From an uncultured Tropicimonas sp. (GTDB taxonomy: Bacteria; Pseudomonadota; Alphaproteobacteria; Rhodobacterales; Rhodobacteraceae), in NCBI GenBank assembly GCA_947495685.1, contig CANLZY010000017.1, forward strand, positions 1-64,000: a stretch of 64,000 nucleotides of DNA, read 5' to 3'. The notes below the pieces were generated by a model. It was not told the DNA's origin. It saw only the letters and a program-made list of their open reading frames with translations, and made no database searches. The position numbers and the translations under genes were made by a program. Shown one piece after another: positions 8,411 through 64,000 of the stretch (positions are counted from its first letter, which is position 1; every line of letters begins with the position of its first letter).

Positions 8411-8434
8411 AAAACGCCCTGCGAATGCAGCGCG
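8411..8434 (-). terminator. Terminator of the VPLPA-CTERM gene
   Basis: On the minus strand, CGCGCTGC-ATTC-GCAGGGCG (one G-G mismatch in eight pairs) is followed by TTTT. It lies just downstream of the minus-strand gene that ends at 8456. Confidence 0.6.
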
Positions 8435-8455
8435 CTTTCATTCTATCAGAGCGTG

Positions 8456-10630: not shown

Positions 10631-10642
10631 CCTCTGGTCTCC

Positions 10643-12759: not shown

Positions 12760-12772
12760 GGATGAATTCCCC

Positions 12773-13522: not shown

Positions 13523-13526
13523 GTCC

Positions 13527-13856: not shown

Positions 13857-14968
13857 CAGCTTCGCTCCGACACTGTGAACCCTGCCACCGAGTTGCGTTC
13901 GATCTCGGCGCGGTCCCAGGCGACCCCCAGCCCTGGCGCCTCGGGTGCCAGGGCTTCGCCGCCCTCGATCCGGATGCCGGTCTCGGTCACGAGGTCCAGC
14001 TGCGGGATGTATTCCAGCCATTTCGCATTCGGGATGGCGCAGACCAGCGACAGGTGCAGCTCCATCAGGAAATGCGGGCAGACGGTGACGTTGTGCGCCT
14101 CGGCCATGTGGGCGACCTTGAGCCAGGGCGTGATGCCACCGATCCGGGCCACGTCGACCTGCACGATGGAGGCCGCGCCGAGGGTCAGGTAATCCTTGAA
14201 CTGACTGAGCGAATACATGCTTTCGCCCACCGCGATTGGAACCGCCGTGCGGCGGGACAGCTCGATGTGCCCTTGTATGTCATCGGCCGGCAGGGGTTCC
14301 TCGAACCAGCCGATCCCGTGGCGTTCCAGCATCTGAGCCCGGCGGATCGCCTCGGACAGGCTGAAGCCCTGGTTGGCATCCACCATGATCTCGTAACCCG
14401 CGCCAACGGCCTCGCGCATCGCGCCCAGCCGGGCATCGTCTTCCGAGATATGCTCCCTGCCGATCTTGACCTTGGAGCCGCGAAACCCCTTGGCCTTGAC
14501 CTCCAGCGCATCGTTGATCAACGCCTCCTGGGACAGATGCAGCCAGCCGCCCTCGGTCGTATAGAGCGGAATGCGATCGCGGCTGCCGCCTGCTGCCTTC
14601 CAGAGGGGCAGGCCGGACTTGCGGCAGCGCAGATCCCAGAGCGCGGTGTCCACTGCGGCCAGCGCCAGCGAGGTGATCGCGCCCACCGAGGTCGCGTGGG
14701 TCAGGAACAGAAGGTCGCGCCAGATCTGCTCGATCCGGTCGGGATCGCGCCCGATCAGGGCCGGGGCGAGGGTGCGCTCCAGCAGGGCCATGACAGACGG
14801 CCCACCAGTGCCGATCGTATAGGTGTAGCCTGTCCCGCTGGCGCCATCGCTGTCGTGGATGGTCAGGATCGGCGTTTCCTGACTGACGAAGGACTGGATT
14901 GCGTCGGTGCGCTTCACCTTGGGGATCAGGTCGACCATCGCAACGTCGACACGGGTGATGACAGCCAT
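13856..14968 (-). CDS. Mandelate racemase-group enolase-superfamily enzyme, second in the cluster
   Basis: 370 residues. Active-site layout: K166/K168 (SKVKIG), D197 (VDANQ), E223 (FEEPL), E249 (VGES) and H299 (CPHF), so it should be catalytically competent as an acid-sugar dehydratase or racemase. It differs clearly from the fuconate dehydratase-like enzyme three genes downstream, so it is not a recent duplicate. Possible roles are an epimeric sugar acid (rhamnonate, galactonate, arabinonate) or racemisation, widening the substrate range of the cluster. It lies between the transporter ATPase (3-base gap) and the mutarotase (1-base overlap). Substrate unknown. Confidence 0.85.
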   Translation of the reverse strand: MAVITRVDVAMVDLIPKVKRTDAIQSFVSQETPILTIHDSDGASGTGYTYTIGTGGPSVMALLERTLAPALIGRDPDRIEQIWRDLLFLTHATSVGAITSLALAAVDTALWDLRCRKSGLPLWKAAGGSRDRIPLYTTEGGWLHLSQEALINDALEVKAKGFRGSKVKIGREHISEDDARLGAMREAVGAGYEIMVDANQGFSLSEAIRRAQMLERHGIGWFEEPLPADDIQGHIELSRRTAVPIAVGESMYSLSQFKDYLTLGAASIVQVDVARIGGITPWLKVAHMAEAHNVTVCPHFLMELHLSLVCAIPNAKWLEYIPQLDLVTETGIRIEGGEALAPEAPGLGVAWDRAEIERNSVAGFTVSERS

Positions 14969-14971
14969 GGC

Positions 14972-16063
14972 TCAGGTCCTTCCGATGGCATTGCCGGTGG
15001 CCGCGTCAAAGACATGGCAACGGTCCAGCATGAGGTTGAATGTCAGGTCCTCGCCGGGCGCAACGGGGCGGGGGTTCAGCATCTTGCCCTGGATCTCCGC
15101 GCCAGCGAGGGTCGCGAACAGCAGCGTTTCGGTGCCGAGTGGCTCGGTAAGATGCACTCGCAGATCAAGCTGCGTCGTTTCCCCTTTTTCGCGCAACCCG
15201 TGCCCCACCGGCGTCAGGTTGTCGGCCCGGAATCCGAAGATGACCTTCTGCCCGTTGCTGAGCTGACCGCGAACGGAGGACGGGATCGGAACGTAAACCT
15301 CGCCCAGCGAAATCGCATCGCCCTCGACGGTTCCAGCAAGCTGGTTCATCGGCGGCGAGCCAATGAACCCGGCCACGAAGATGTTGACCGGTTGCTCGAA
15401 CAGCTGAAGCGGCGTGCCCACCTGCTCGATCCGGCCATCCCGCATCAGGACGATCCGATCCGCCAGCGTCATCGCCTCCACCTGGTCGTGAGTGACGTAG
15501 ATGATCGTGGAATCGACCTTCTGGTGCAGCTTCTTGATCTCGACCCGCATCTGCGAACGCAGCTTGGCGTCGAGGTTCGACAGCGGTTCGTCAAACAGGA
15601 ACACGTCAGGGTGGCGCACGATGGCCCGCCCCATCGCCACGCGCTGGCGTTGCCCGCCCGAGAGCGCGGCAGGCTTGCGGTCCATCAATTCGTCCAGTCC
15701 AAGGATGCCGGCGGCCTCGTCCACCGCACGGACGATCTCGTCCTCGGGGCGCTTGGCAATCGTCAGGGAGAACCCGAGGTTTTCGCGAACGGTCATATGC
15801 GGGTAGAGCGCGTAGTTCTGGAACACCATGGAGATGTTGCGCTCGCGCGGCGGGAGATCATTCACCACCCGTCCGCCAATCGATACCTCTCCGTCGGAAA
15901 TGGCCTCCAGCCCCGCGATCATGCGCAGGGTCGTGGACTTTCCGCACCCGGACGGCCCGACGAGCACGACGAATTCGCCATTCTCGATCTCCAGGTCGAT
16001 CCCGTGGACGGCCTGTTGGGTGCCGTAGCGCTTGATCACGTTTCTCAGTGAGACTTCGGTCAT
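14972..16063 (-). CDS. CUT1-type sugar ABC transporter ATPase (MalK/UgpC family)
   Basis: 363 residues. Walker [10 protein letters not shown] (residues of about 37-45), signature [15 protein letters not shown], Walker [18 protein letters not shown], switch His in [14 protein letters not shown]. The C-terminal third is the OB-fold/TOBE regulatory domain typical of MalK ([13 protein letters not shown]). It powers the permease pair encoded just upstream and is four bases from the nearer permease gene. It serves uptake of the sugar or oligosaccharide handled by this cluster. Confidence 0.92.
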
Positions 16064-16067
16064 CGGG

Positions 16068-16931
16068 TCATCCCTTGACGCCGCCGAAGGTCAGGCCGGC
16101 GATCAGATGTTTCTGGACAATGAAGGTGAGGATCAGGGCGGGCAGGATCATCAGAACCGCCAAGGCGCACATGCCGCCCCAGTTGATGGTGAATTCCGCC
16201 GTGAAGTCGAGCAGGCCCACCGGCATGGTCTTGGAGCCGGTCGAGCGGGTCAGTTGCGAGGCCAGTGCGAATTCGTTCCACGAGGTCAGGAAGGCAAAGA
16301 TCGCGGCCGAGGCGACACCGGAACGTGCCACCGGGAACTCCACCTTCCAGAACGCCTGCCAGCGGGTGCAGCCATCGATCTCGGCGGCTTCGTGCAGCTC
16401 TCCCGGGATCTGCCGAAAGAACCCGTCGGTCAGCCATACGGTGAAGGGCACGTTCATCGCCACATAGACAAGGATCAACCCGAAATGCGTGTCGATGATG
16501 CCGACCCGGGCAAAGACGATGAACAGGGGCAGGGACAGTGCAACCCCCGGCACGGCGCGAAAGAGCATCAGCCCGACGAAGATGCCTCCCTTGAAGCGAA
16601 ACTTGTAGCGCGCAAAGGCGTAACCGCCCGACATGCCGATCAGGATCGCGATGACCGTCGAGGTGACAGAGACCACCAGCGAGTTGCGGAAGTAGTGAAA
16701 CACCGGCACGCCGCCTTCGCCCGCGCCACCGAACATCGCCCGGTAGTGATCCAGGGTGAACGAGGGCACCCAGACGGGCGGCTTGGCCATGATCTCGACC
16801 GTGGGCCGGAAGGAGTTCAACACGATCCAGAGGCCGGGAATGCAGATGATTGCCATCACGATGAACAGGCCGAAGAAGTGCATCCAGGCGAGGACACGGC
16901 GGCGATTGCGGTGGGTGCGATTGCGATCCAT
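16068..16931 (-). CDS. Sugar ABC transporter permease (MalG-like)
   Basis: 287 residues with six predicted membrane helices. The N-terminus is short and Arg-rich ([13 protein letters not shown]). The EAA loop that docks the ATPase reads [23 protein letters not shown]. MalG-like permeases pair with a MalF-like subunit, here the gene five bases upstream. Inner-membrane component of the CUT1 importer. Confidence 0.92.
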
Positions 16932-16936
16932 GAGCC

Positions 16937-17830
16937 TTACCCCTCCAGCCCGATTTCGGCGCGGGCGGCGCTGAGTTTGCGGAAGAAATAGATGGTGAAG
17001 AGGATCGACAGGATGATGGAGACATACCCCATGGCGTTCGCCAGCCCCATCCTGGCATCAACGTAGCCGGTTCGGGACATCAGCGTCCACAGCAGCTCCG
17101 TGCGCCGCGCCGGCCCGCCGCCGGTCATGATCTGGACGATGTCATAGGCCCGCGCCACATCAAGCGACCGGATCGTCATGGCGATGTAGATGAAGGGCAT
17201 CAGGAACGGCAACGTGATGTGCCGAAAGGTTTGCCACGGGGTGCAGCCGTCAACCTCTGCCGCCTCCAGCGGGTCGCGGGGCATGGCAAACAGCCCGGCC
17301 AGGATCAGGATGGCAAAGACGGAGGTGCTCATCCAGACCTCTGCGAAGACAATCGAGAACATCGCCAGTCGCCCGTCCACCAACCAAGGTAGCGCCATGT
17401 CCGTGATGCCCAAGGATTGCAGCACGTTGTTCACCAGCCCGACGTTGTCGTTGAAAATGAACTTGAACTGGAAGCCAACGAGGATCGGCGAAAACATCAT
17501 CGGAAACATCAGGATCGTGCGCAGGGTGCGCTGCCCCCAGGTGACCCGGTTGACCATCAGCGCGATGCCAAGACCAAGAAGCAACTCCACGTTCAACACG
17601 ATGGTCAGGAACAGGACCGTCCGACCGAAGGCCGCCCAGAAATTCGCATCCGTCAGGATCTTCTGGTAATTGTACGTTCCCACCCAACGCCACAACGTCG
17701 AGGGCCGGGTGAGCTTGTAGGGTGTGAAGCTCGAATAGAGCGAGAAGATCAGCGGGATCAACACCACTGCTGCGATCACGATGAACGCTGGCAATAGCAG
17801 GACAAACCACTCCGGCAGGCGGCGTCTCAT
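16937..17830 (-). CDS. Sugar ABC transporter permease (MalF-like)
   Basis: 297 residues from the ATG at 17830 (MRRRLPEWFV); the open frame upstream is not permease-like. There are six membrane helices, the first at residues of about 8-30. The EAA loop is PLEAAEVDGCTPWQTFRHITLP. It forms the heterodimeric channel with the MalG-like protein encoded next. A 64-base gap separates it from the binding-protein gene upstream. Confidence 0.92.
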   Translation of the reverse strand: MRRRLPEWFVLLLPAFIVIAAVVLIPLIFSLYSSFTPYKLTRPSTLWRWVGTYNYQKILTDANFWAAFGRTVLFLTIVLNVELLLGLGIALMVNRVTWGQRTLRTILMFPMMFSPILVGFQFKFIFNDNVGLVNNVLQSLGITDMALPWLVDGRLAMFSIVFAEVWMSTSVFAILILAGLFAMPRDPLEAAEVDGCTPWQTFRHITLPFLMPFIYIAMTIRSLDVARAYDIVQIMTGGGPARRTELLWTLMSRTGYVDARMGLANAMGYVSIILSILFTIYFFRKLSAARAEIGLEG

Positions 17831-17894
17831 GGCGTCTGTTCCTTGGGAAAACGGAAAGGTCGGCGGAGGCCCTGAATGCCCCCGCCAGGGAGGG

Positions 17895-19211
17895 TCAGTA
17901 GTACCCGGCCTCACGCATCAGTTCGTCGACGCCTTCGGCAGCATCGTTCAGGGCCTCTTCGACCGTCTTGTCACCGACAATCGCTGCCTGAAGCTCCGGG
18001 AAGACGATGTTGGTGCTTTCGCCCCATTCCGGGATCGGCGGTACGGCAAACGCGTGCTTTGCACCTTCTGCAAACGCGGCGAGGGCTTCGGCGCGGAATG
18101 CGTCGTCCCCGTTCTGTGCGGCTTCGACGTTGGTCGCCCACACAGCCGTTCGTGTCGGCAACGACCCACCGGCCGACTCGGCCAGCTGGCTTTCCTCGCT
18201 GGTCAGGAACATGACGAGCGAAACTGCGGCGTCCTTGTTCTCGCAATCATCGGTGACCGAGAATCCGTGATGCCCCGACCAGCCCGTCCGAGCCGCCGAT
18301 CCCATGGGTTGCACCGCAACGCCGACGTTTCCGGCAGCCTTCGAGGATTCGGGATCGTTGAAGAACCCGGCCCAACCCGGCCAGTCGAGGTTCAGAGCGA
18401 TGGTTCCCGAGGCAAACCCTTGCCCAAGATCATCCCAGACATAGCTGGTGGTGCCTGCTGGCACGGCCTTGGCCTCGTACAGATCGACAAACCATTGCAG
18501 GGCGCGTTGTCCGGCCTCGGAATTGAAGATCGGCTTGTTGGTCTCGTCGATGTAGTTGCCACCCTCGGCCACGACCATCTCGTAGAAGCGTCCGACGATT
18601 GCCTCGTCCTTGCCCGCATATTGCGTGCCGTAGAAGTTCGGCGGATCGGCAAAGAAGATCGCCTGGTCCTTGACCTGGTCCCAGGTCTCGGGGACGGCCA
18701 GATCGTAGCCATATTCTTCCTTGAAGGCGGCGGATTTATCGGCGTCCTCGTAGTTGGACTTCAGGTAGTAGAGAACCGAAACGTCGAACTGGGCGCGCGG
18801 CAGCATCAGAAGCTCTCCGCCCACCGTCGACGCATTGATGTTCCCGGGAACGAATTCGGCCACCGTCTCGGCGGGCACAAACGCGTTCAGGTCGACGTAG
18901 AGCCCCTCGTATTGCGGGGCAAAGGACGAATGGTTGGAACCGACACACCACGATGTCGTTCCCGCAGCCATGTCCGACTTGATCTCGCGATCAATCTCGA
19001 AATGGCTCTTCTTGGATGAGATTTCGACCTTGCCGCCGGTCTCTGCCTCCCAGTCGGCGATCCGGGCATACAGCCCCTCGTATTGTTGTCCGCCGATCAG
19101 CTTTGCCTGAATCGTTACACCGTCAAATTCTCCGGCTGCCGATGCTCCGGCGCCAACACCAACAGCGGCGACGCTCGCCATCAGCATCCTGAATGCGCGT
19201 AAATCTTTCAT
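17895..19211 (-). CDS. Sugar ABC transporter substrate-binding protein (CUT1)
   Basis: 438 residues. A Sec signal peptide (MKDLRAFRMLMASVAAVGVGAGASAAG, cut near residue 26) sends it to the periplasm. The rest is a cluster-D two-lobe binding protein (EFDGVTIQAKLIGGQQYEGLY; Trp-rich lobe DWPGWAGFF). It is the first gene of the ten-gene operon, with a strong ribosome binding site (AGGGAGGACATC before ATG). It faces the IclR regulator across a 123-base divergent promoter region. It selects the sugar for the cluster, possibly a fucoside or oligosaccharide. Confidence 0.92.
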   Translation of the reverse strand: MKDLRAFRMLMASVAAVGVGAGASAAGEFDGVTIQAKLIGGQQYEGLYARIADWEAETGGKVEISSKKSHFEIDREIKSDMAAGTTSWCVGSNHSSFAPQYEGLYVDLNAFVPAETVAEFVPGNINASTVGGELLMLPRAQFDVSVLYYLKSNYEDADKSAAFKEEYGYDLAVPETWDQVKDQAIFFADPPNFYGTQYAGKDEAIVGRFYEMVVAEGGNYIDETNKPIFNSEAGQRALQWFVDLYEAKAVPAGTTSYVWDDLGQGFASGTIALNLDWPGWAGFFNDPESSKAAGNVGVAVQPMGSAARTGWSGHHGFSVTDDCENKDAAVSLVMFLTSEESQLAESAGGSLPTRTAVWATNVEAAQNGDDAFRAEALAAFAEGAKHAFAVPPIPEWGESTNIVFPELQAAIVGDKTVEEALNDAAEGVDELMREAGYY

Positions 19212-19334
19212 GATGTCCTCCCTGTGCGCGCCCTAGGTCTTCGAACTTTCGGCGCAACGCATTTATATACAAAACCGATATTCAAAAATAAATCAACCTT
19301 GACTTTAAATGCGACTTCGCCTGAATGTCCGAAC
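19212..19334. promoter_or_regulatory. Divergent promoter region between the ABC operon and the IclR gene
   Basis: 123 bases, clearly AT-richer than the surroundings (for example ATTTATATACAAAA at 19261-19274). A TTGACT at 19299-19304 could be a -35 box for the regulator gene. The AT-rich imperfect dyad TTTATATAC...AATAAA at 19262-19293 is a candidate IclR operator. The exact sites are not certain. Confidence 0.5.
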
Positions 19335-20144
19335 ATGATGGATCGGGACGAGACGAACGAGAAGTACAGGGCGCCGGCGCTCGAAAAAGGGCTGGATATC
19401 ATAGAGTTGCTGGCGGAAAGCGTGGACGGGCTTGCCCAGAAAAGCATCGCGCAGGCGCTGGATCGGTCGCAGAGCGAAATCTACAGGATGCTCTCGACGC
19501 TGGTTCGGCGCGGCTATGTTGTTCGCTCGTCAGAGGATGACCATTACTCGCTCAGTCTCAAGATTTTCGCCCTGGCCCAACGGCATCCCCCGATAGGACG
19601 TCTGCTCGATGTGGCGCCGGCAAGGATGCGGAATCTGTCGCGCCGTATGTGGCAATCGAGCCATCTGGTCACGGAGAGCAACGGCGACATCGTCGTTGTG
19701 GCATCCGTCGAATCCCCGGGAAACTGGGGGCTGGCCCTCAAGGTCGGCTCGGTGATCGGCCTTGGCAATACCGGCTCAGGCCGGGTCCTTGCCGCGTTTC
19801 GATCCGATGAAGAAATCGACGAGATGATCGGTCTCCATCGGCTTTCTGTTGGTGAACCACCGCTGGACCGGGACGAGTTCCGTGCACATATCCTGCGGAT
19901 TCGGGAAGTGGGATACGAACGCATGCCGTCCTCGACGACAGTCGGGGTGACCAACCTGTCCTTTCCGGTGCTCGATCAGGTCGGGCGCTCCATCGCGACA
20001 TTGAGCTGTCCGTTCCTGGAGCGGATCGATGCGCATGAGGTCCCGTCGATTGACGAAGTTCTGGAGATGCTCCGCACCCTGGCGCGCGAGCTGACGGACT
20101 TCTATTGCGGCACCACCGGCGTCGAGGGGGAACCGCGATCATGA
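19335..20144 (+). CDS. IclR-family transcriptional regulator of the sugar cluster
   Basis: 269 residues from the ATG at 19335 (MMDRDETNEK); a second ATG follows directly. The N-terminal winged helix-turn-helix spans residues of about 15-75 (ALEKGLDIIELLAE; AQALDRSQSEIYRMLSTLVRRGY). The C-terminal GAF-like effector domain runs from about 85. IclR proteins bind a pathway metabolite and repress or activate the divergent operon. The stop codon overlaps the start of the lactonase gene (ATGA), so regulator and enzyme are co-translated. It likely responds to a sugar acid made by the cluster. Confidence 0.9.
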   Translation: MMDRDETNEKYRAPALEKGLDIIELLAESVDGLAQKSIAQALDRSQSEIYRMLSTLVRRGYVVRSSEDDHYSLSLKIFALAQRHPPIGRLLDVAPARMRNLSRRMWQSSHLVTESNGDIVVVASVESPGNWGLALKVGSVIGLGNTGSGRVLAAFRSDEEIDEMIGLHRLSVGEPPLDRDEFRAHILRIREVGYERMPSSTTVGVTNLSFPVLDQVGRSIATLSCPFLERIDAHEVPSIDEVLEMLRTLARELTDFYCGTTGVEGEPRS

Positions 20145-54557: not shown

Positions 54558-55424
54558 ATGAGATACCATACCGCGGCGAGCTTCGAGGAAGCGGTCGCAA
54601 TCGCTGCCGCTGCCGAGGGCGTGACACGATTTTTGGCCGGAGGCACGGATGTCCTGGTTCAACTGCGTTCCGATGTTGTGACACCGGACGACCTGATCGA
54701 CATCAAGCATATCCCCGGCGTGTCGGAGATCATCCGCGCGGATGACGGCGGCTGGACCATCGGCATTGCCGTGCCCGGCGCCGTGATGGGCGAACATGCG
54801 GACCTGTGCCGGGACTGGCCCGGCGTTGTCGAGGGCATGGAACTGATCGGCTCGACCCAGGTGCAGGGACGGGCGACGCTTGTCGGCAACCTGTGCAACG
54901 GATCGCCCGCCGCTGACGGCGTTCCGGCCCTCATGACCGCCGGTGCGACGGTTTCGGTCGTCGGCCCCAATGGCAGCCGGACGGTTGCGGTGCAGGACAT
55001 TCCCACCGCTCCGGGCCGCATCAGCCTGTCAAAGGGCGAGATGATCACTGCAGTGCACCTGCCTGCACGTGCAGAGCACGCCGGCGACGCGTATCTGCGT
55101 TTCATCCCGCGCACCGAAATGGACATTGCCGTCGTGGGCTGCGCCGTGAACCTGCGGCTGGACGGCGACGTGATCATCGAGGCCAGCGTGGCGCTTGGCG
55201 CGGTGGCCCCTACCGCCCGGCTTGTGCCCGCTGCCGCCGAGGCTCTGATCGGCAGCACGCTGGACGATGCGGCCCTGTCGGCACTGGCAGAGGCCGCCTC
55301 TGCCGCCTGTTCGCCCATCGATGACAAGCGCGGCACCATCGCGTTCCGCACCCGTGTGGCAGGGGTTCTGGCCCGCCGGGCGGCCGGCATCGCCTATGAC
55401 CGCGCAAAAGGAGCTTCGGCATGA
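54558..55424 (+). CDS. FAD-binding (medium) subunit of a molybdenum hydroxylase (CoxM-like)
   Basis: 288 residues. N-terminal FAD-binding domain with FLAGGTDVLVQLRS and later TQVQGRATLVGNLCNGSPAADG, the two flavin motifs of the xanthine dehydrogenase/CoxM family, and the C-terminal domain (RFIPRTEMDIAVVGCAV). It takes electrons from the 2Fe-2S subunit. AGGGG precedes the start. The stop overlaps the CoxS start (ATGA). Confidence 0.92.
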   Translation: MRYHTAASFEEAVAIAAAAEGVTRFLAGGTDVLVQLRSDVVTPDDLIDIKHIPGVSEIIRADDGGWTIGIAVPGAVMGEHADLCRDWPGVVEGMELIGSTQVQGRATLVGNLCNGSPAADGVPALMTAGATVSVVGPNGSRTVAVQDIPTAPGRISLSKGEMITAVHLPARAEHAGDAYLRFIPRTEMDIAVVGCAVNLRLDGDVIIEASVALGAVAPTARLVPAAAEALIGSTLDDAALSALAEAASAACSPIDDKRGTIAFRTRVAGVLARRAAGIAYDRAKGASA

Positions 55425-55900
55425 GCAGAATCCATGTGACCACCACGGTCAACGGCGACGAGGTCGAGTACCTGTGCGAACCGCGTGAAACGCTGCTGGA
55501 CTGTCTGCGCGATCATGTCGGTCTGACCGGGGCCAAGGAAGGCTGCGGCACCGGCGATTGCGGGGCCTGTTCGGTCACGCTCGACGGGCGGCTGGTGTGC
55601 TCCTGCCTGGTGCTGGGCGCCGAGGCCGAGGGCAAGAAGGTCGAAACCATCGAGGGGCTGGCCGACGGTGACACGCTGCACCCGTTGCAGCGCAAGTTCA
55701 TCGAACACGCAGCCTTGCAATGCGGGATCTGCACGCCGGGCATCCTGATCGCCGCCAAGGCGCTGCTGGAAAAGACCCCCGATCCGACCGAGACCGAGGT
55801 CCGCTACTGGCTGGCCGGAAACCTCTGCCGCTGCACAGGCTATGACAAGATCATTCGCGCCGTGATGGACGCGGCGGCTGAAATGCGGGAGGCATCGTAA
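55421..55900 (+). CDS. 2Fe-2S (small) subunit of a molybdenum hydroxylase (CoxS-like)
   Basis: 159 residues. The plant-type 2Fe-2S cluster ligands lie in EGCGTGDCGACSV and VCSC, and the second cluster in CGICTPG and LCRCTGY. The cluster order (plant-type first) is that of the family. The stop shares a base with the CoxL start (TAATG). Electron carrier between the molybdenum site and the FAD subunit. Confidence 0.95.
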   Translation: MSRIHVTTTVNGDEVEYLCEPRETLLDCLRDHVGLTGAKEGCGTGDCGACSVTLDGRLVCSCLVLGAEAEGKKVETIEGLADGDTLHPLQRKFIEHAALQCGICTPGILIAAKALLEKTPDPTETEVRYWLAGNLCRCTGYDKIIRAVMDAAAEMREAS

Positions 55901-58149
55901 TGGCGCTCGACGATCGAAAGACCGACGGTTTCAAGTATATCGGCACCCGCCCCAACCGCCCCGACGGGCTGGACAAGGTGACGGGAAAGGCCCGCTTTGG
56001 CGCGGATGCCTCGGCCTCCGGCATGCTGCACGGTGCCATCGTGCGCTCGCCCCATGCCCACGCGCGCATCCTGAAGATCGACGCGACCAGGGCGCTGGCG
56101 CTGACGGGCGTCAAGGCGGTCGTGACCCGCGCCGACTTTGCCACCGGATTGACGGGCGAGGACGCCGACCTGCTGGAAAACGTCATCGCCGGAGAAAAGG
56201 CTCTGTATGATGGCCATGCAATTGCCGCCGTCGCGGCGACATCGGCGCTGATCGCGCGCGATGCGGCCAAGCTGGTCGAGGTGACCTACGAGCCTCTGCC
56301 GCACGTGACGGATGTGGATGCCGCCATGCAGCCCGACGCGCCGATCATCCGCGCCGATGCCGCCGACGACAGCGTGCCCGAGGGCATGCACCCTAACGTT
56401 GTCCGCTACATGGAGTTTGGCCGCGGTGATCTGGAGGCCGGGTTCGCCGAGGCCGATGCCATCGTCGAGCAGACCTACAAGACCGAGGCCACCCACCAGG
56501 GCTATATCGAACCCCATGCCTGCCTGGCGCAGCTGGGGGCCGACGGCAGGGGCGAGCTGTGGTGCTGTACCCAGGGCCACTGGTTCGTGCGGCGCATGTG
56601 CACCGCCCTGCTGGGGCTGGAGACCAGCCAGTTGCGTGTCACCCCGTCCGAAATCGGTGGCGGGTTCGGTGGCAAGACAACGGTGTTCATCGACCCGATT
56701 GCACTGGCCCTGTCGCGCAAGGCCAGCCGCCCGGTCAAGCTGGTGATGAGCCGGTCCGAGGTGCTGCGGGCCACCGGGCCGACGGCGTCGGCCTCGATGG
56801 ACATCAAGATCGGCATGAAGCGCGACGGCACGATCACGGCGGCCAGCGGGGTGTTCCGCCTGCAGGGCGGTGCCTTCCCGGGCGCGCCAACGGCCGAGAC
56901 GATGCAATGCGCCTTTGCCTGCTACGAAATTCCGGCTGTGCACGAGGTCGGGTACGACGTTATCGCCAATCGGCCGAAACAGGCTGCCTATCGGGCGCCC
57001 GGGGCGCCGATGGGGGCGTTTGCCGTCGAAAGCGCGCTGGACGAACTTTGCCGCGAGTTGGATCTGGACCCGATCGAGATGCGACTGAAAAACGCCTCCC
57101 GCGAAGGCACCCGGTCTAGTTTTGGCCCCCGGTTCCCGCGCGTCGGGTTGGTGGAAACGCTGGAAGCGGCCAAGGCACATCCGCATTACGCGGCACCGCT
57201 GGGCCCCAACCAGGGACGCGGCGTCGCCTGCGGTTACTGGATGAACTGGGGCGGCGAGACGTCGGTGTCGCTGGCAATCTCGGAGGATGGCACCGCGCAG
57301 GTCACGGTCGGCACGCCGGATATCGGTGGCTCACGGGCGTCGATGGCGCTGATGGCGGCCGAGGCACTGGGCATCCCGTATGAAAACGTGCGCTGCAACA
57401 TCGCTGACACCGGCTCGCTGGGTATCAACGAACCGACCCATGGCAGCCGGGCGACCTACGCCAGCGGGTTGGCCACCATCGAGTCTGCACGCCAGGCCAT
57501 CGGCAAGTTGTGCGAGCGCGCTGCGGACAAGTGGGGCATCGACGCCGAGGCGGTGATCTGGGAGGACGGCTGTGCGAAGCCCTCCGGCCCCAATGCCGGG
57601 GAATTTCCGCCGCTGACCATTGCAGAGATCGCCGCCGAGATGGGATCGACCGGCGGGCCGATCTCGGGCCACCACGAGGCCACGCCGAATGGTCATGGCG
57701 GCAGCTTTGGCACCCACCTGGTGGATCTGGAGGTGGACCCGGAGACCGGGCGCACCACGATCCTGCGCTATACGGTGGTGCAGGATGCCGGCAAGGCGAT
57801 CCATCCGGCCTATGTCGAGGGACAGTTCCAGGGCGGCGCCGTACAAGGCATCGGCTGGGCGCTGAACGAGGAATACATCTATGGTCAGGACGGACGGCTT
57901 CAGAACCCGATCTTCCTCGACTATCGCGTTCCCGTCGCCTCCGACCTGCCGATGATCGACACGGTGATCGTCGAGGTGCCCAACCCGGGTCACCCCTACG
58001 GTGTGCGTGGGGTGGGCGAAACCGGCATCACCCCGCCGCTGCCTGCGGTGGCCAACGCGGTGGCAACAGCCGCGGGCGTGCGCCTGCGCCATCTGCCGAT
58101 GACCCCACCGCGGATCCTGGCCGCACTGGAGCAGAAGGCCGGTGGTTGA
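55900..58149 (+). CDS. Molybdopterin-binding (large) subunit of a molybdenum hydroxylase (CoxL-like, not CO dehydrogenase)
   Basis: 749 residues. Cofactor motifs: GGGFGGK (253-259), AYRAPGAP (363-370), and the catalytic Glu near 707 in GVRGVGETGITPPL. The active-site loop is AYRAPGAP, not the AYxCSFR of true form-I CO dehydrogenase, so CO oxidation is unlikely. Closer groups include hydroxylases of aromatic or N-heterocyclic compounds. The substrate is not clear. The MoaD/ThiS-like gene overlaps its end. Confidence 0.9.
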   Translation: MALDDRKTDGFKYIGTRPNRPDGLDKVTGKARFGADASASGMLHGAIVRSPHAHARILKIDATRALALTGVKAVVTRADFATGLTGEDADLLENVIAGEKALYDGHAIAAVAATSALIARDAAKLVEVTYEPLPHVTDVDAAMQPDAPIIRADAADDSVPEGMHPNVVRYMEFGRGDLEAGFAEADAIVEQTYKTEATHQGYIEPHACLAQLGADGRGELWCCTQGHWFVRRMCTALLGLETSQLRVTPSEIGGGFGGKTTVFIDPIALALSRKASRPVKLVMSRSEVLRATGPTASASMDIKIGMKRDGTITAASGVFRLQGGAFPGAPTAETMQCAFACYEIPAVHEVGYDVIANRPKQAAYRAPGAPMGAFAVESALDELCRELDLDPIEMRLKNASREGTRSSFGPRFPRVGLVETLEAAKAHPHYAAPLGPNQGRGVACGYWMNWGGETSVSLAISEDGTAQVTVGTPDIGGSRASMALMAAEALGIPYENVRCNIADTGSLGINEPTHGSRATYASGLATIESARQAIGKLCERAADKWGIDAEAVIWEDGCAKPSGPNAGEFPPLTIAEIAAEMGSTGGPISGHHEATPNGHGGSFGTHLVDLEVDPETGRTTILRYTVVQDAGKAIHPAYVEGQFQGGAVQGIGWALNEEYIYGQDGRLQNPIFLDYRVPVASDLPMIDTVIVEVPNPGHPYGVRGVGETGITPPLPAVANAVATAAGVRLRHLPMTPPRILAALEQKAGG

Positions 58150-58475: not shown

Positions 58476-59030
58476 CTAGCGCGCGACCTCGTCCATGAAC
58501 CGCTGGCGGATGACGATGGGGTTCATCGTGATCACCGGGCACTTCTTGTTGCCGCTGTCGCATTTCGACACGATGATCGTCATCGTGTCGGCAGCCAGCG
58601 CGGCCTTGACCGCATCCGGCGTCTCGGCTGCAGAACACTCCACGACGGTGTCACACCCGCAGGCCTCGGCGACCTTGGCCAGCGAGGTGCGCGCACCGGC
58701 ATAGGTCGGCTGATCGCCGGTGGAGCCGTAGCTGCCGTTGTCCACGATCAGCAGTATGAAGTTGTTCCGGGCGTTGTTGCCGATGGTGGCCAGCGTGCCC
58801 ATGTTGGTCAGGACAGAGCCGTCGCCGTCGATCGCGATGACCTTTTTGTCGGTCGCCATGGCAAGCCCGAGGCCGATCGACGAGGCCAGTCCCATCGTCC
58901 CCAGCATGTAGAAGTTCGACGGCTGATCGTCGATCTCGTGCAGTTCCTGGCTGGGCGAGCCGATGTTGCAGACGACAAGTTCGTCCGTGATGACGGGTTT
59001 CAGGAGTTCAAGAAGCTCGTAGCGGATCAT
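58476..59030 (-). CDS. comE: Sulfopyruvate decarboxylase beta subunit
   Basis: 184 residues from the ATG at 59030, which overlaps the ComD stop (ATGA). Thiamine diphosphate-binding motif IDGDGSVLTNMGTLATIGNNARNNF (GDG...NN), then VDNGSYGSTGDQPTYAGARTSL. With ComD it decarboxylates 3-sulfopyruvate to sulfoacetaldehyde and CO2. In archaea this serves coenzyme M synthesis; in marine bacteria it serves sulfonate degradation. Here it ends a six-gene operon that supplies its substrate. Phosphonopyruvate decarboxylase is the main alternative, but the neighbours favour sulfonates. Confidence 0.87.
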   Translation of the reverse strand: MIRYELLELLKPVITDELVVCNIGSPSQELHEIDDQPSNFYMLGTMGLASSIGLGLAMATDKKVIAIDGDGSVLTNMGTLATIGNNARNNFILLIVDNGSYGSTGDQPTYAGARTSLAKVAEACGCDTVVECSAAETPDAVKAALAADTMTIIVSKCDSGNKKCPVITMNPIVIRQRFMDEVAR

Positions 59031-59533
59031 TTTGCGCTCCCCCAGAAGCTGGCGTCGGTCAGGATGGCGACGGGTTTGCAGCACATCTGGGTGTGCTTCA
59101 GGATGCCCGGCAGCTCCTCGATCTGCGACGCATGGTGCAGGTGGTAGGTCGGGATCAGCATCTGGTTCAGAAAGGCCTTGGTGTGCAGCGCCATTTCCAC
59201 CTGGCAGGCCACCGGTTCACCCACTTCACCGCGATAACTGATCAGCATCGGCAGCGGGATCTGGTAGAACTGGATCAGCGTTGCCAGCGAGTTGAGCGTC
59301 ACCCCCAGGGCGGTGTTCTGCATCATGATCAGCGGCCGCATGCCGCCCATGAAGGCGCCCGCACACAGGCCCATGCCCTCGTCTTCCTTGTTGCAGGGAA
59401 CGTGCAGGATACCGTCGGTCTGGTCGACGACCTCGATCACGCCTGCCAGTTGCTTGCAGGGGACGGAGGTCACGAAATCGACCTTGTTGTCCAGCAGATC
59501 CTGGATGATCCGCCTGTCTATGTCCTTTGCCAT
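59027..59533 (-). CDS. comD: Sulfopyruvate decarboxylase alpha subunit
   Basis: 168 residues. Pyrimidine-binding half of a thiamine diphosphate decarboxylase: DFVTSVPCKQLAGVIE, the catalytic Glu in VPCNKEDEGMGLCAGAFMGG, and QNTALGVTLNSLATL. It makes a heterodimer with the ComE subunit encoded next, with a four-base overlap. Separate alpha and beta subunits are the ComDE arrangement. Starts 13 bases after the SlcC-like gene. Confidence 0.87.
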   Translation of the reverse strand: MAKDIDRRIIQDLLDNKVDFVTSVPCKQLAGVIEVVDQTDGILHVPCNKEDEGMGLCAGAFMGGMRPLIMMQNTALGVTLNSLATLIQFYQIPLPMLISYRGEVGEPVACQVEMALHTKAFLNQMLIPTYHLHHASQIEELPGILKHTQMCCKPVAILTDASFWGSAK

Positions 59534-59545
59534 CTGGCTTCCTCC

Positions 59546-60472
59546 TCAGGCCTTGTTCAGTCGGTCCAGCATCAGATCGGCGATCATGGTGCTGACACGA
59601 ACATTCGATTCCTCGGTGACGCCGGCGATATGCGGGGTCAGGATGAGGTTCTGCACGTCCTTGAATTTCGCAGCGGCCTCGGCCGTCAGCGGTTCGGTTT
59701 CGAACACGTCAAGCGCGGCACCCGCAACGTGCCCCTCGGTCATCGCGGCAACCAGGGCGGCCTCGTCCACGACGCCACCGCGCGCCGCGTTGATCAGCAC
59801 TGCGCCGGGTTTCATCGCCGCCAGCGTTTCGGCGTTGATCATGTGGCGTGTGGCATCGACCAAGGGCACGTGCAGGCTCACCACGTCGGCGGCCTTGAGC
59901 ACCCCGGACAGATCGGTCCGCATCACGCCATACCAGGCGGGGCTGTCGGCCGACACATACGGGTCGGTGGCGCAGATCTGCATGCCAAGCTCCCTGGCCA
60001 GCCGCGCCGTTTCCTGCGCGATGGCGCCAAACCCGATCAGGCCCAGCGTCTTGCCAGACACCTCGCGCCCCGCACAGGCCATGCGCGGCCAGTCCCCGGC
60101 CAGCATCGCGGACCGGGCCTGATAGGCGTTGCGCAACAGGACAAAGGCATTGGCGATGACGTATTCCGCCACCGACAGGTTGTTGGCGCCGGTTGCCGGG
60201 ATGACCTCGACATCGCGTTCCTTGCAGGCCGGCAGGTCGATATTGTCGAGCCCCACCCCCAACCGTCCGACGACCTTCAGGTCAGGGGCGGCATCCAGCA
60301 ACGCGGCGGTGACCTGGGTCCGGTTGCGGACAACCAGCGCCTGAATCCCGCCCATCATGCCCGGAATATCGCTCTGCCTGTCGGCCAGATCGGGCAGGTA
60401 TTGGGTTGCGACCTTGTCAGAGAGGGCGGCAACCGCCCCTTCGTCCATGAATTCGGTGATCAGAACAGACAT
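59546..60472 (-). CDS. slcC: D-2-hydroxyacid dehydrogenase, (S)-sulfolactate dehydrogenase (SlcC)-like
   Basis: 308 residues, phosphoglycerate-dehydrogenase fold. NAD motif GKTLGLIGFGAIAQ, catalytic Arg in INAARGGVVDE, Glu in the FETEPL stretch, His in LTPHIAGVT. The group includes SlcC, which oxidises (S)-sulfolactate to 3-sulfopyruvate. The gene sits directly before comDE, which consume sulfopyruvate, and one base overlaps the aldehyde dehydrogenase before it. Its start is the TGATG shared with that gene. Specificity is by context; another hydroxyacid is possible. Confidence 0.78.
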   Translation of the reverse strand: MSVLITEFMDEGAVAALSDKVATQYLPDLADRQSDIPGMMGGIQALVVRNRTQVTAALLDAAPDLKVVGRLGVGLDNIDLPACKERDVEVIPATGANNLSVAEYVIANAFVLLRNAYQARSAMLAGDWPRMACAGREVSGKTLGLIGFGAIAQETARLARELGMQICATDPYVSADSPAWYGVMRTDLSGVLKAADVVSLHVPLVDATRHMINAETLAAMKPGAVLINAARGGVVDEAALVAAMTEGHVAGAALDVFETEPLTAEAAAKFKDVQNLILTPHIAGVTEESNVRVSTMIADLMLDRLNKA

Positions 60473-61923
60473 CAGAGCAACCCCGCAACGCAGACGTATT
60501 TCGTGGACAGGTAGTCATCCAGCCCCTGGCTGCCGCCCTCCTTGCCCATGCCGGATTCCTTCAACCCGCCAAACGGTGCCTCCACCGTGGTGATCAGGCC
60601 CGAGTTGATGCCGATCAACCCGTATTGCAGCCCGTCGTTCAGCCGGAACACGCGCCCGACGTCCTTGGTATAGGCATAGGCAGCCAGGCCGAAGTCGGTG
60701 TCGTTGGCGGCGGCGATCGCCTCCTCTTCGGTGTCGAAGCTGAAGACAGCGGCCAGCGGGCCAAAGATCTCTTCGGTGGCAAAGGCCATGTCGGCGGTGG
60801 CACCGGTCACCACGGTGGGTTCGAAATAGGTGCCGCCGTTGCCGTGACGTTTGCCGCCTTCGACGATCTTGCCGCCCTTTGAGACGGCATCGGCGATGAA
60901 CTCCTCGACCTTTTCCACCGCGGCCATGTCGATCATCGGGCCCTGCTGCACGCCGTCCTCGATGCCGTTGCCGACAACCAGCGCCGCCACGGCTTCCTTC
61001 AGTTTTTCGACAAACGCGTCGTGAATGCCGGCCTGCACGTAGAACCGGTTGGTGCAGACGCAGGTCTGGCCCATGTTGCGGAACTTGGCGATCATCGCGC
61101 CTTGAACCGCGGCGTCGAGATCCGCGTCGTCAAAGACGATGAAGGGCGCGTTGCCGCCCAGCTCCATCGACACCTTCTTGACCGTGTCGGCGGACTGCCG
61201 GATCAGGGTCTTGCCGATCTCGGTCGAGCCGGTGAAGGTCACTTTTCGAACATCCGGGCTGTCCATGATGGCGCCCCCGATCTGGCGGGCCGAGCCGGTG
61301 ACGACATTGACCACGCCAGCCGGATACCCGACCTCTTCGCACAACTTGCCCCAGGCCAGGCCCGAGTAGGGCGTCGCCGTTGCGGGCTTGGCGATCACCG
61401 TGCAACCAGCCGCCAGCGCCGGGGCCAGCTTGCGCGCAAGCATGGACGAGGGGAAGTTCCACGGCGTGATGGCGCCGACCACGCCAACCGGATGGCGGGT
61501 GACCAGCAGGCGGCGGTCGTTGGTGGGGGCGGGCACGATCTCGCCCTTGGCGCGGCGCACCTCTTCGGCAAACCAGCGCACGTAGGCGGCCGAGATTGCG
61601 ATCTCGCCCATCGCCTCGAACAAGGGCTTGCCCTGTTCGGTGGTCAGCAGCAGCGCCAGCGACGCCTGGTTGTCCATCAACGCGTCATGCAGTCCGTGCA
61701 GCAGCTTCACGCGGGTCATCAAGTCGGTCCGGGAAAAGCTCTTGAAGGCATCGGAGGCGGCCGCGATGGCGCGGTTCGTCTCGTCGGTGCCGCAGTTGGG
61801 CACGGTTCCGATCACCTCGCCGGTGGCCGGGTTGGTCACATCGATCGTCGTCCCGCTGTCGGCGCCGACCCAGGCCCCGCCGATCAGGTTGGCTTGCTGC
61901 AGATAGGTGGTGAAATCGGTCAT
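60472..61923 (-). CDS. Aldehyde dehydrogenase, succinate-semialdehyde type, likely 3-sulfolactaldehyde dehydrogenase
   Basis: 483 residues. Catalytic Glu in MELGGNAPF (near 254) and Cys in MGQTCVCTN (near 288), cofactor motif FTGSTEIGKTL. Closest groups are GabD-like semialdehyde dehydrogenases and SlaB, which oxidises (S)-3-sulfolactaldehyde to (S)-sulfolactate with NAD(P). Since the next gene is sulfolactate dehydrogenase-like, the sulfolactaldehyde role is the natural reading. Coupled to both neighbours by overlaps of four bases (upstream) and one base (downstream). Confidence 0.8.
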   Translation of the reverse strand: MTDFTTYLQQANLIGGAWVGADSGTTIDVTNPATGEVIGTVPNCGTDETNRAIAAASDAFKSFSRTDLMTRVKLLHGLHDALMDNQASLALLLTTEQGKPLFEAMGEIAISAAYVRWFAEEVRRAKGEIVPAPTNDRRLLVTRHPVGVVGAITPWNFPSSMLARKLAPALAAGCTVIAKPATATPYSGLAWGKLCEEVGYPAGVVNVVTGSARQIGGAIMDSPDVRKVTFTGSTEIGKTLIRQSADTVKKVSMELGGNAPFIVFDDADLDAAVQGAMIAKFRNMGQTCVCTNRFYVQAGIHDAFVEKLKEAVAALVVGNGIEDGVQQGPMIDMAAVEKVEEFIADAVSKGGKIVEGGKRHGNGGTYFEPTVVTGATADMAFATEEIFGPLAAVFSFDTEEEAIAAANDTDFGLAAYAYTKDVGRVFRLNDGLQYGLIGINSGLITTVEAPFGGLKESGMGKEGGSQGLDDYLSTKYVCVAGLL

Positions 61924-62930
61924 GGGGTGTCCTTCGAAAAGATGTATTGCGTCTGTTGGCGATAGGTCTCGCCCGGCCGCAGGATAGCCTGCGGGAAATT
62001 GGCATGATGGGGCGAATCCGGCCAGATCTGCGGTTCCAGTGCCACGCCGGCGCCCGGACCCATGCGGCGCCCATCCAGCCCCGGCACCGGCACATCCAGC
62101 GCCGCACCATCATAGACCTGAAGCCCCGGTTCCGTCGTGCGGATCTGCATCGAGACACCGGAGGCAGGGCAGGACAGTTCGGCCACCTTGCGCAGCGCCT
62201 GGCGTTCGGCGGACAGGCAGAGGTTGTGATCGATCAGCCCCCTGGCGCTGGCCGGTCCAATGGCGCATGGCGCGCGGAAATCGAACCGCGTGCCGGCGAC
62301 CTCCGCCACGTCTCCCGTCGGGATCAACTCGTTGTCCACGGGCAGGTAGTTGTCCGCCGCGACCCGCAGCAGGTGGTCTGCCACGGTGTCACCCTCACCA
62401 AGGTTGAAATAGCTGTGGTGGGCGATATTGCAGAGCGTCGTCGCGTCGGTGGTCGCCTCCATGCAAATGTCGAGAACGCCATCCCCGCGGAGGGTGAAGG
62501 TCTGCCGGATGTCGAGGTTGCCCGGAAAGCCCATCTCGCCATCGGTGGCGCGGATCACCAGTGTGATGCTGTTGTCGCTGAGCTCCGCGAGGCCCCAGAC
62601 CCGCTTGCCGATCCCGGCGGCCCCGCCGTGCAGAAGGTGCTTGCCGAGGAAGTTGGTGTCGAGCTGGTAGGTCTCGCCGTCCAGCTCCAGATGCCCGTCC
62701 CGAATGCGGTTGGCATAGCGGCCAGCCGTGGCCCCGAAATAGCGCGAATGGGCAAGGTAGTCCTCGAACGCCTCCAAGCCCAGCACCAGTGGCCCGGCGT
62801 GACCGTCGAGCCGCAGATCCTGCAGCACCGCGCCATAGGTCAGGAACCGCGCCGTCAGCCCGCCGCCCTGAATTGTGTAACGCCGAACGGGTGTGCCGTC
62901 AGGCATCTGGCCGAAATCTTCCCCTCTCAT
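61920..62930 (-). CDS. Aldose 1-epimerase (galactose mutarotase fold)
   Basis: 336 residues from the ATG at 62930 (MRGEDFGQMPDG), overlapping the Gfo/Idh stop by four bases. Beta-sandwich GalM fold with the catalytic His pair region CNIAHHSYFNLGEG, the HGG-type site LLHGGAAGIGKRVW and the Glu in GVALEPQIWPD. It would speed anomer interconversion of the sugar released by the cluster. Sulfoquinovose mutarotase is a fitting role in this operon, but specificity cannot be read from the sequence. Confidence 0.85.
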   Translation of the reverse strand: MRGEDFGQMPDGTPVRRYTIQGGGLTARFLTYGAVLQDLRLDGHAGPLVLGLEAFEDYLAHSRYFGATAGRYANRIRDGHLELDGETYQLDTNFLGKHLLHGGAAGIGKRVWGLAELSDNSITLVIRATDGEMGFPGNLDIRQTFTLRGDGVLDICMEATTDATTLCNIAHHSYFNLGEGDTVADHLLRVAADNYLPVDNELIPTGDVAEVAGTRFDFRAPCAIGPASARGLIDHNLCLSAERQALRKVAELSCPASGVSMQIRTTEPGLQVYDGAALDVPVPGLDGRRMGPGAGVALEPQIWPDSPHHANFPQAILRPGETYRQQTQYIFSKDTP

Positions 62931-64000
62931 AGCGATACCTCGATGGCCTGGCCGGTGCGGGCCGATTTTTCGGCCGCCTCGCCGACGATGACAGACCACA
63001 GGCCGTCCTGAAGCGTCACCTCTGGTTCGCCCTTGCCGGCAAGCACGAGATCGCGGAACTTTTGATGCTGGAAATAGGTCGAGCCGTGGTGGTCGCCCGC
63101 CTCAAGCACCTCGTTGGGAACGTGAACGACATCGACCGAGATCCTCTTGGTGGCGCGTTCGGAGACGACTACTTCGGCGTCCCGTTCCTTGCCATCGGGG
63201 GAAAACCGCGAGGGGCCGGGCACCTTGGCCTCGATCCGCGCCGCATCCCCGGTCACACAGATCTTTTCCTGCCAATAGGCCCCTTCGGAAAACATGCACA
63301 GATCCAGCATGCCACGGGTGCCGTTGGCAAAGTCTATTGTGACATAGGCATTGTCGATGATGTCGGGTTTGCGCCCGCCATAGGTCTCGTCAACGTGGTT
63401 CACATCCATCGCGCCAGAGGCATAGACCCGCACCGGGTCGCTTTGCAGCGTGAACCGCATCAGGTCCCAGAAGTGGCAGCACTTTTCGGTAAGCGTGCCA
63501 CCGGTGCGCTCGTTGAACCGGTTCCAGTCGCCGACCTTGGGCAGGAAGGGAAACCGGTGTTCGCGGATCGACATCATCTGCGGCCTGCCGATCCGCCCCT
63601 CGGCCATCTCCGCCAGCAGCCGTTGCATCGGCGGCATGTAGCGATACTCCATCGCCACCCAGATCGGCGCCGCGCGCCCCTCTGCCTTGGTCACCAGATC
63701 GCGGCAGTGCTCGGACGTGGTGCAGAGCGGTTTTTCGCACAGGATCGGTTTGCCGCTGTCCATCACGTCCAGCATGATCTGATGGTGCGTGTCATTTGGC
63801 GAGATGATCATCAGCGCGTCACAGATGCCCGCCGACAGCATGTCCTTGTGGTCGCTGAAGGCCTTTGCGGTGCCGCCCGACGTTTCCACCGACAGGGCGC
63901 GCATCCCCTCGTCGAGGTCGGCAATGGCAGTGACCTCGCAGCCTTCCAGCAGGTTCAGGTTTCGGATGTGTTCCTGGCCCATCATGCCGGATCCGATGAG
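62927..64000 (-). CDS. Gfo/Idh/MocA-family NAD-dependent protein, start beyond window edge
   Basis: 357 residues visible. The frame runs out of the window at the right edge within the nucleotide-binding motif LIGSGMMGQEH, so only a few N-terminal residues are missing. Other marks are EKPLCTT (the Gfo/Idh catalytic Lys region) and the substrate-side stretch TGGTLTEKCCHFWDLMRF with a His typical of the glycosidase-type members. The fold is used both by sugar dehydrogenases and by NAD-dependent glycosidases, including sulfoquinovosidases of the SqgA type. It is the first visible gene of the operon; which activity it has is undecided. Confidence 0.8.
   Translation of the reverse strand, partial: LIGSGMMGQEHIRNLNLLEGCEVTAIADLDEGMRALSVETSGGTAKAFSDHKDMLSAGICDALMIISPNDTHHQIMLDVMDSGKPILCEKPLCTTSEHCRDLVTKAEGRAAPIWVAMEYRYMPPMQRLLAEMAEGRIGRPQMMSIREHRFPFLPKVGDWNRFNERTGGTLTEKCCHFWDLMRFTLQSDPVRVYASGAMDVNHVDETYGGRKPDIIDNAYVTIDFANGTRGMLDLCMFSEGAYWQEKICVTGDAARIEAKVPGPSRFSPDGKERDAEVVVSERATKRISVDVVHVPNEVLEAGDHHGSTYFQHQKFRDLVLAGKGEPEVTLQDGLWSVIVGEAAEKSARTGQAIEVSL

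Follow-up and report, generated by a model that had tools for sequence, protein, structure and literature searches.

A conserved minus-strand operon of an uncultured Tropicimonas sp. with a predicted sulfoquinovose pathway ending in SlcC and ComDE

The window analysed here, 64,000 nucleotides long, starts at the first base of a contig of 138,976 bases (CANLZY010000017.1, here C17) from an uncultured Tropicimonas sp. with a genome size of 5.6 Mb. Its right end holds a row of minus-strand genes which a sequence-only reading had taken as part of an operon leading from a sulfosugar to sulfoacetaldehyde. The six genes were found in the order given by that reading:

58476..59030, minus strand, comE, sulfopyruvate decarboxylase beta subunit (TIGR03846)
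59027..59533, minus strand, comD, sulfopyruvate decarboxylase alpha subunit (TIGR03845)
59546..60472, minus strand, slcC-like (S)-sulfolactate dehydrogenase of the D-2-hydroxyacid dehydrogenase family (PF02826/PF00389)
60472..61923, minus strand, aldehyde dehydrogenase of the succinate semialdehyde dehydrogenase (SSADH)/GabD type, proposed (S)-sulfolactaldehyde dehydrogenase (TIGR01780, 638.1 bits, cut-off 646.35)
61920..62930, minus strand, aldose 1-epimerase, proposed sulfoquinovose mutarotase (PF01263, 3.1e-76)
62927..64018, cut by the window edge at 64000, minus strand, GH188-type NAD-dependent sulfoquinovosidase (SqgA-like, Gfo/Idh; PDB matches and residues)

The start codon of the Gfo/Idh gene was located at C17:64018, 18 bases past the window edge (positions beyond 64000 carry on the window numbering). 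The coordinates showed overlaps of 4, 1, 4 and 4 bases, the first being that of comE with comD, and a gap of 12 bases between comD and slcC where 13 had been read. No internal stops were present in any of the six genes. Comparison of nine enzyme genes with those of Aliiruegeria lutimaris (L108) showed 83-93% identity at codon positions 1 and 2 and 53-69% at position 3, and this far better conservation of the first two positions indicates selection at the protein level. The six genes were confirmed as genuine and conserved. They belong to a longer operon on the minus strand as its downstream half; this operon runs upstream past base 64000, where the sequence was followed to C17:73274 and the following genes were identified:

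C17:64020-65402, minus strand, SftI/SqvD-family isomerase (NF048012)
C17:65413-66438, minus strand, LacD/DUF2090-type class I aldolase (PF01791; PDB matches)
C17:66438-67322, minus strand, PfkB kinase, YihV-like (PF00294; best PDB match 7ag6)
C17:67319 to about 68629 (start uncertain), minus strand, MauG-like di-haem protein
C17:69167-70246, minus strand, TRAP solute-binding protein (NF037995, 133.8 bits, cut-off 50)
C17:70257-71756, minus strand, TRAP large subunit, identified by eye
C17:71756-72340, minus strand, TRAP small subunit, identified by eye
C17:72489-73274, minus strand, DeoR/GlpR-family regulator (NF008154, 196.4 bits, cut-off 331)

The Gfo/Idh protein produced three PDB matches, 8qc3, 8qc2 and 8zn9, with E values from 5.9e-115 to 2.7e-111, and the next family followed at 8.9e-24. 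The structure 8qc2 is named as GH188 in PMC11465081, and 8qc3 and 8zn9 are probably also GH188, judging by their likeness. Residue roles were taken from PMC10755693 and PMC11465081, and the positions were placed by PDB alignment. In ArSqgA the contacts to sulfoquinovose (SQ) and its sulfonate are Lys107, Tyr136, Arg166, Leu170, Lys172, Glu189, His193 and His321 (PMC10755693). All 22 aligned sequences, the one of the window included, retain those residues in the stretches with catalytic and sulfonate-binding positions. Homology and residues together place the protein as a GH188-type sulfoquinovosidase, in agreement with the earlier proposal that the gateway enzyme may be encoded here, and its predicted activity is the NAD-dependent cleavage of SQ glycosides.

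The only NCBIfam family matched by the isomerase at an E value up to 0.001 was the sulfoquinovose isomerase SftI (NF048012), at 251.8 bits, far under the cut-off of 700. Its Pfam match was Fucose_iso_C and it did not fall in the YihS (aldose-2-epimerase) family; by the NCBIfam cut-off it classifies as a distant SftI relative and not as an equivalog. The predicted model (predicted local distance difference test score, pLDDT, 89; predicted template modelling score, pTM, 0.90) resembled arabinose and fucose isomerases (AraA/FucI), with a TM-score to the query of 0.49-0.58. For the kinase, the closest solved relative was the E. coli sulfofructose kinase 7ag6 (YihV, 1.2e-55), followed by 2rbc (1.2e-46) and ribokinases (3.9e-27), a family placement that points to a YihV-like sulfofructose kinase. 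The sulfonate contacts of YihV are presumably Lys27, Asn109 and Arg138; at the aligned positions all 22 sequences have the Lys and the Arg, and 17 have the Asn, the other 5 having Ala there. The aldolase was placed in the LacD/PRK12858 subfamily (tagatose-1,6-bisphosphate aldolase) and not in the YihT type, with 8tnf (DUF2090, 1e-94) and LacD (6e-39) matching far better than YihT (3e-16). The presumed active-site Lys of the LacD stretch was kept in 19/19 aligned sequences. For the aldolase the AlphaFold model was of poor quality (pLDDT 56.7) and was left out of the fold search. No paper was found that joins sulfofructose, aldolase and LacD, and none that places a LacD-type aldolase in SQ breakdown; literature on PDB 8tnf consisted of unrelated papers only.

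A sulfo-Entner-Doudoroff (sulfo-ED) front end and an ABC importer had been expected upstream by the sequence-only reading. Among the genes from 58476 to 73274, none for SQ dehydrogenase, lactonase, dehydratase or 2-keto-3,6-dideoxy-6-sulfogluconate aldolase was found, the rest of the genome not having been searched for them, and the same stretch held a TRAP transporter and no ABC importer. The sulfo-ED front end was rejected since such genes were not in the operon. The isomerase, LacD-type aldolase and PfkB kinase that lie upstream instead point to the logic of the sulfo-Embden-Meyerhof-Parnas (sulfo-EMP) pathway. The kinase (PF00294) and aldolase (PF01791) did not correspond to the sulfo-EMP2 enzymes SqiK (PF00365) and class II SqiA.

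In the back half of the operon, ComE scored over its model cut-off (231.6 bits against 221.5) and ComD about 4 bits under its own (144.0 against 147.95). The SlcC-like protein was 61% identical to the SlcC-like protein encoded directly after suyA-suyB in genome G052 (locus L095). A tree of 43 sequences separated 36 operon-, comDE- or suyAB-linked rows from seven own-genome D-2-hydroxyacid dehydrogenase paralogues with a support of 84/93 on a branch that was not starred; the paralogue branches were long, some rows shared a genome and no characterised SlcC was among the rows. The protein appears to group with the suyAB-linked SlcC and not with the paralogues of the phosphoglycerate dehydrogenase (PGDH) type, and an ordinary phosphoglycerate dehydrogenase was rejected because the tree sets the own paralogues apart. 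The closest PDB match of the aldehyde dehydrogenase was E. coli SSADH. A WNF motif, two Arg and a Cys have been proposed for sulfolactaldehyde binding in RlGabD (PMC10599462); all were kept in 19/19 aligned sequences, but E. coli SSADH has the same residues, so this test does not discriminate.

A gene for Xsc, for which the sequence-only reading had suggested a genome search, was present at C1:241450-243177 with 932 bits (TIGR03457, cut-off 676.4). It adjoins a gene for a YeiH-family exporter (134.6 bits, under the cut-off of 232.6) and taurine-like genes read by eye. Contig C7 encodes a homologue 75% identical to the molybdopterin oxidoreductase near xsc in genome G059, which, judging by its context, is presumably the sulfite dehydrogenase SoeA. 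One family search gave no SuyB-type gene in the own genome, the sole PF04295 match having a 561-residue open frame and not the 393 residues of the SuyB type. That reading had also named three outcomes that would speak against it, namely unrelated genes upstream, an ordinary phosphoglycerate or hydroxypyruvate reductase in the place of SlcC, and a genome without xsc; none of these was observed.

The operon probably encodes a catabolic hybrid sulfo-EMP route for SQ and its glycosides which ends in sulfoacetaldehyde via SlcC and ComDE, a function read from the genes and their context. The scores of ComE (over) and ComD (just under the cut-off), the grouping of SlcC, the presence of xsc and the GH188 protein support the earlier view of a one-organism sulfosugar route to sulfoacetaldehyde. 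Every substrate and activity in the following scheme is a prediction, as are the cargo of the transporter and the flux through Xsc. The TRAP transporter would import the substrate, the GH188 enzyme would split SQ-glycerol with catalytic NAD+ and the epimerase would interconvert the SQ anomers. The isomerase would convert SQ to sulfofructose, the PfkB kinase would phosphorylate this to sulfofructose-1-phosphate, and the class I aldolase would cleave the latter into dihydroxyacetone phosphate and (S)-sulfolactaldehyde. The aldehyde dehydrogenase would then yield (S)-sulfolactate, SlcC would oxidise it to sulfopyruvate and ComDE would decarboxylate sulfopyruvate to sulfoacetaldehyde and CO2. Finally, Xsc in trans would form acetyl phosphate together with sulfite, which a SoeABC-like enzyme, also in trans, may oxidise.

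Orthologues of the isomerase (59-100% identical) were found in 23 of the 390 genomes of the order, and 10 more genomes had weak matches of about 30% only. SlcC-ComD-ComE lay inside the operon in 6 of the 23 genomes, the own included. At the 22 other loci, genes with at least 40% identity were found for GH188 (21, the gene missing from L049), the kinase (21), the aldolase (18), SlcC (18), the aldehyde dehydrogenase (18) and the epimerase (18), and some of the misses may stem from the 20-kb stretches and the 40% identity threshold. The gene order was kept across genomes and genera, for which reason a chance operon was rejected. ComE over the cut-off was found in 14 of the 23 isomerase genomes compared to 139 of 390 overall (Fisher p 0.0099) and xsc over the cut-off in 22 of 23 (the own and 21 of the 22 others) compared to 259 of 390 (Fisher p 8e-4), in tests that ignore shared ancestry. 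A SuyB-type gene was present in 6 of the 23 genomes, and ComE or SuyB in 19.

A scan of GTDB species contigs covered the best 80 of 275 stretches encoding an isomerase relative, a sample that favours close relatives and overlaps partly with the 390-genome set. Downstream on the same strand, ComD and/or ComE were found in 19 of the 80 loci (both in 18, and ComD alone in L163, where the contig ends) and SuyB with SlcC in 7, of which 6 also had ComC. An HpsN/HisD-like gene was downstream in 2 loci, so that 28/80 carried a sulfolactate-type module (ComDE, SuyB or HpsN-like), and ComDE and SuyB together were found downstream in none of the 80. Some loci were short; of the 66 whose downstream stretch reached 6.5 kb or more, 14 had ComD/ComE, 7 SuyB-SlcC, 2 an HpsN-like gene and 43 none of these. 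Some relatives have SuyAB in place of the ComDE tail. That one or another sulfolactate-consuming module can stand at this end of the operon argues, independently of any single annotation, for sulfolactate as a product of the operon. SuyB was assigned by 82-100% identity to the L085 protein, by a SuyA-sized gene in L095, L097 and L099 (the loci with genes listed) and by the SlcC/ComC neighbours in the seven tail loci; NCBIfam searches of five SuyB candidates gave no SuyB model match and galactarate dehydratase only, far under its cut-off. The names SuyB, HpsN, SoeABC and ComC for these genes are in part presumed. On balance, we favour the wider reading that a third sulfo-EMP enzyme set (SftI-family isomerase, YihV-like kinase and LacD/DUF2090-type class I aldolase) is joined in one operon to interchangeable tails, either ComDE with Xsc or SuyAB-SlcC-ComC, by which many marine Alphaproteobacteria could mineralise SQ alone, with no oxygenase and no partner.

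Several observations weigh against the proposed SQ route. The main one is that 52 of the 80 loci have no ComDE, SuyB or HpsN-like gene downstream, although 28 of the 52 still have SlcC; in such cases desulfonation is either encoded at another place of the genome or missing. By these searches genomes G059, G268, G080 and G350 have neither ComE nor SuyB, G059 having xsc about 14 kb from the isomerase, and G343 has a partial xsc match only. In the own genome, xsc lies apart from the operon and its coupling to operon expression is presumed, and the sole phosphotransacetylase-type match is 39% identical to the query. The name SoeA is presumed, and the NCBIfam matches of the G059 counterpart are far under the cut-offs (best 190.8 of 694). 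Among the enzymes themselves, the isomerase is far under the equivalog cut-off, the aldolase is distant from YihT and may not be sulfo-specific, and the residues of the aldehyde dehydrogenase do not set it apart from SSADH. ComD is just below its cut-off, the key branch of the SlcC tree is unstarred and the tree is without a biochemically characterised SlcC, and the association tests count related genomes as independent.

Another sulfohexose such as sulfofucose, processed by the same operon logic via a sulfotagatose-1-phosphate cut by the LacD-type aldolase, is an unlikely substrate. The tagatose-1,6-bisphosphate aldolase subfamily of the aldolase, the isomerase as a merely distant SftI relative with a FucI/AraA-like fold and the degradation of sulfofucose by a Paracoccus (PMC12421959) would fit it, but a GH188-type sulfoquinovosidase is encoded in the operon and its SQ-contact positions are conserved in 22/22 sequences, the kinase is nearest to the SQ-pathway kinase YihV, and the known sulfofucose pathway is of the ED type with ABC importers and, in the available text of PMC12421959, no candidate sulfofucosidase. 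Oxidation of SQ only to sulfolactate or sulfopyruvate, which would be excreted while ComDE served imported sulfolactate or 2,3-dihydroxypropane-1-sulfonate (DHPS), is very unlikely here. The position of comD and comE 12 bases behind slcC in an SQ operon and the xsc of the genome speak against it, and the SuyAB tails of other relatives would likewise cut the C-S bond; the tail-less front halves (52/80 loci, some short, and 43/66 with at least 6.5 kb) and the published sulfo-EMP strains with a sulfolactaldehyde (SLA) dehydrogenase, which excrete sulfolactate (PMC8873060), speak for it. A non-sulfonated sugar operon, for inositol or fucose, with comDE as a chance neighbour is the most improbable of the readings weighed. 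Gfo/Idh, epimerase, PfkB and LacD are generic sugar families, yet the GH188 match (5.9e-115) stands against 8.9e-24 for the next family, SftI is the sole NCBIfam match of the isomerase and 28/80 loci have the sulfolactate-type module. The inositol pathway was rejected because the Gfo/Idh protein is far nearer to GH188 than to the next family.

The SQ operon shares parts with several described systems. About ten billion tons of SQ are produced annually (PMC12890257). Sulfoglycolytic bacteria have been described that release C3 or C2 sulfonates to be used by others, as have single organisms that use SQ completely through oxygenase pathways, and 'extended' clusters with SuyAB are noted (PMC9594981, PMC12890257, PMC13372026). 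Arthrobacter sp. AK01, which carries SqgA, has a sulfo-EMP pathway (PMC8873060, PMC10755693) that likewise comprises an isomerase, a sulfofructose (SF) kinase, a sulfofructose phosphate (SFP) aldolase, an SLA dehydrogenase and a GH188 sulfoquinovosidase, but its isomerase is of the YihS type, its aldolase is YihT and sulfolactate is excreted, whereas the operon described here has an SftI-family isomerase and a LacD-type aldolase followed by SlcC-ComDE. Hybrid sulfo-EMP clusters have been reported in Proteobacteria (PMC10599462, PMC9594981, PMC13372026), and sulfo-EMP2 or hybrid sulfo-EMP (PMC9594981, PMC10599462, PMC12890257, PMC13372026) uses a FucI-family SQ isomerase, a probable counterpart of the isomerase found here; its SqiK and class II SqiA are not in our operon, which has a YihV-like kinase and a class I LacD-type aldolase. 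Sulfoglycolysis and desulfonation genes also share one cluster in the extended sulfo-transaldolase (sulfo-TAL) clusters with SuyAB (PMC9594981) and in an actinobacterial GH188 cluster with SLA dehydrogenase, D-3-phosphoglycerate dehydrogenase, SuyAB, SFP aldolase, SF kinase and fucose isomerase, noted as a possible new pathway (PMC11465081). The D-3-phosphoglycerate dehydrogenase of that cluster may be an SlcC, though the available text of PMC11465081 does not so name it. Compared to the extended SuyAB clusters, ours is alphaproteobacterial, has a TRAP importer and ends in a ComDE tail with Xsc in trans.

Paracoccus wurundjeri, in which sulfofucose breakdown is in tandem with SuyAB, likewise combines sulfosugar breakdown, SlcC and sulfolactate desulfonation in one bacterium, a coexistence that its authors find unusual (PMC12421959). 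It differs in its substrate, its ED-type chemistry and its SuyAB, and the sulfolactaldehyde dehydrogenase was not identified in the available text of PMC12421959. In Alphaproteobacteria the degradation of DHPS through HpsNOP and SlcD is known to employ ComDE and Xsc, the same desulfonation module, but its sulfolactate stems from DHPS (PMC11382572), whereas here it would come from the sulfosugar operon. The one open-access library that was searched gave no account of a sulfo-EMP operon with SlcC-ComDE at its end, figures and subscription papers being outside this scope; a Jannaschia faecimaris cluster in a figure of PMC10755693, itself not seen, may be of this locus type. Extended sulfoglycolysis is already known, and the sulfo-EMP operon with ComDE appears to be a further variant of it. 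If the pathway is as proposed, a widespread operon that unites the two halves would bring some of the marine SQ flux into single cells, contrary to the two-organism view of sulfoglycolysis that current reviews give. The operon would also give a diagnostic gene pair (the isomerase with comDE or suyAB) and a candidate new type of sulfofructose-phosphate aldolase. Named strains have it, among them Aliiruegeria lutimaris DSM 25294, Shimia abyssi DSM 100673 and, with a SuyAB tail, Hoeflea halophila.

Other features were observed at and around these loci. The MauG-like gene stands first in the enzyme part of the operon; 19 of the 22 relatives' loci have it, and no proposed pathway step needs it. It is spaced by about 537 bases from the TRAP solute-binding gene, and between them a Sel1-repeat-like gene lies on the opposite strand (C17:68642-69115, plus strand), with related open reading frames in L050, L052 and L055 and a sole NCBIfam match far under its cut-off. 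An Rfam search of L009 from 8400 to 20000 gave no match. Convergent with the operon end, three plus-strand genes at 54558-58149 of the window resemble by eye those of a CoxMSL-type hydroxylase for its FAD, 2Fe-2S and molybdenum subunits. In G059 (L101, 3575-16131), a HisD/HpsN-like gene, three sulfite-dehydrogenase-like genes, a phosphotransacetylase-like gene, xsc and taurine-type genes are about 14 kb from the SQ operon.

Two plasmids also encoded relatives of the isomerase. On plasmid pZZM402 of Zymomonas mobilis ZM4 (L198, 128-4636), genes for a class II aldolase, an aldose epimerase, an isomerase of the SftI family and a protein resembling GH188 (46% identity with ours) follow one another and may form a sulfoquinovose cluster; this pairing of a related isomerase with a GH188-like protein would count for the SQ reading. 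On the Ca. Chlorohelix allophototropha plasmid NZ_CP128401.1 (L199, 1425-17274), the Gfo/Idh protein was 27% identical to ours and not GH188 by this test. That locus has an SftI-family isomerase, a kinase of the pyrophosphate-dependent phosphofructokinase type, an SSADH-like dehydrogenase and a PGDH-like protein (38% identity with our SlcC), together with threonine-synthase-like, sulfite reductase and siroheme genes, a set that may serve sulfur assimilation from SQ.

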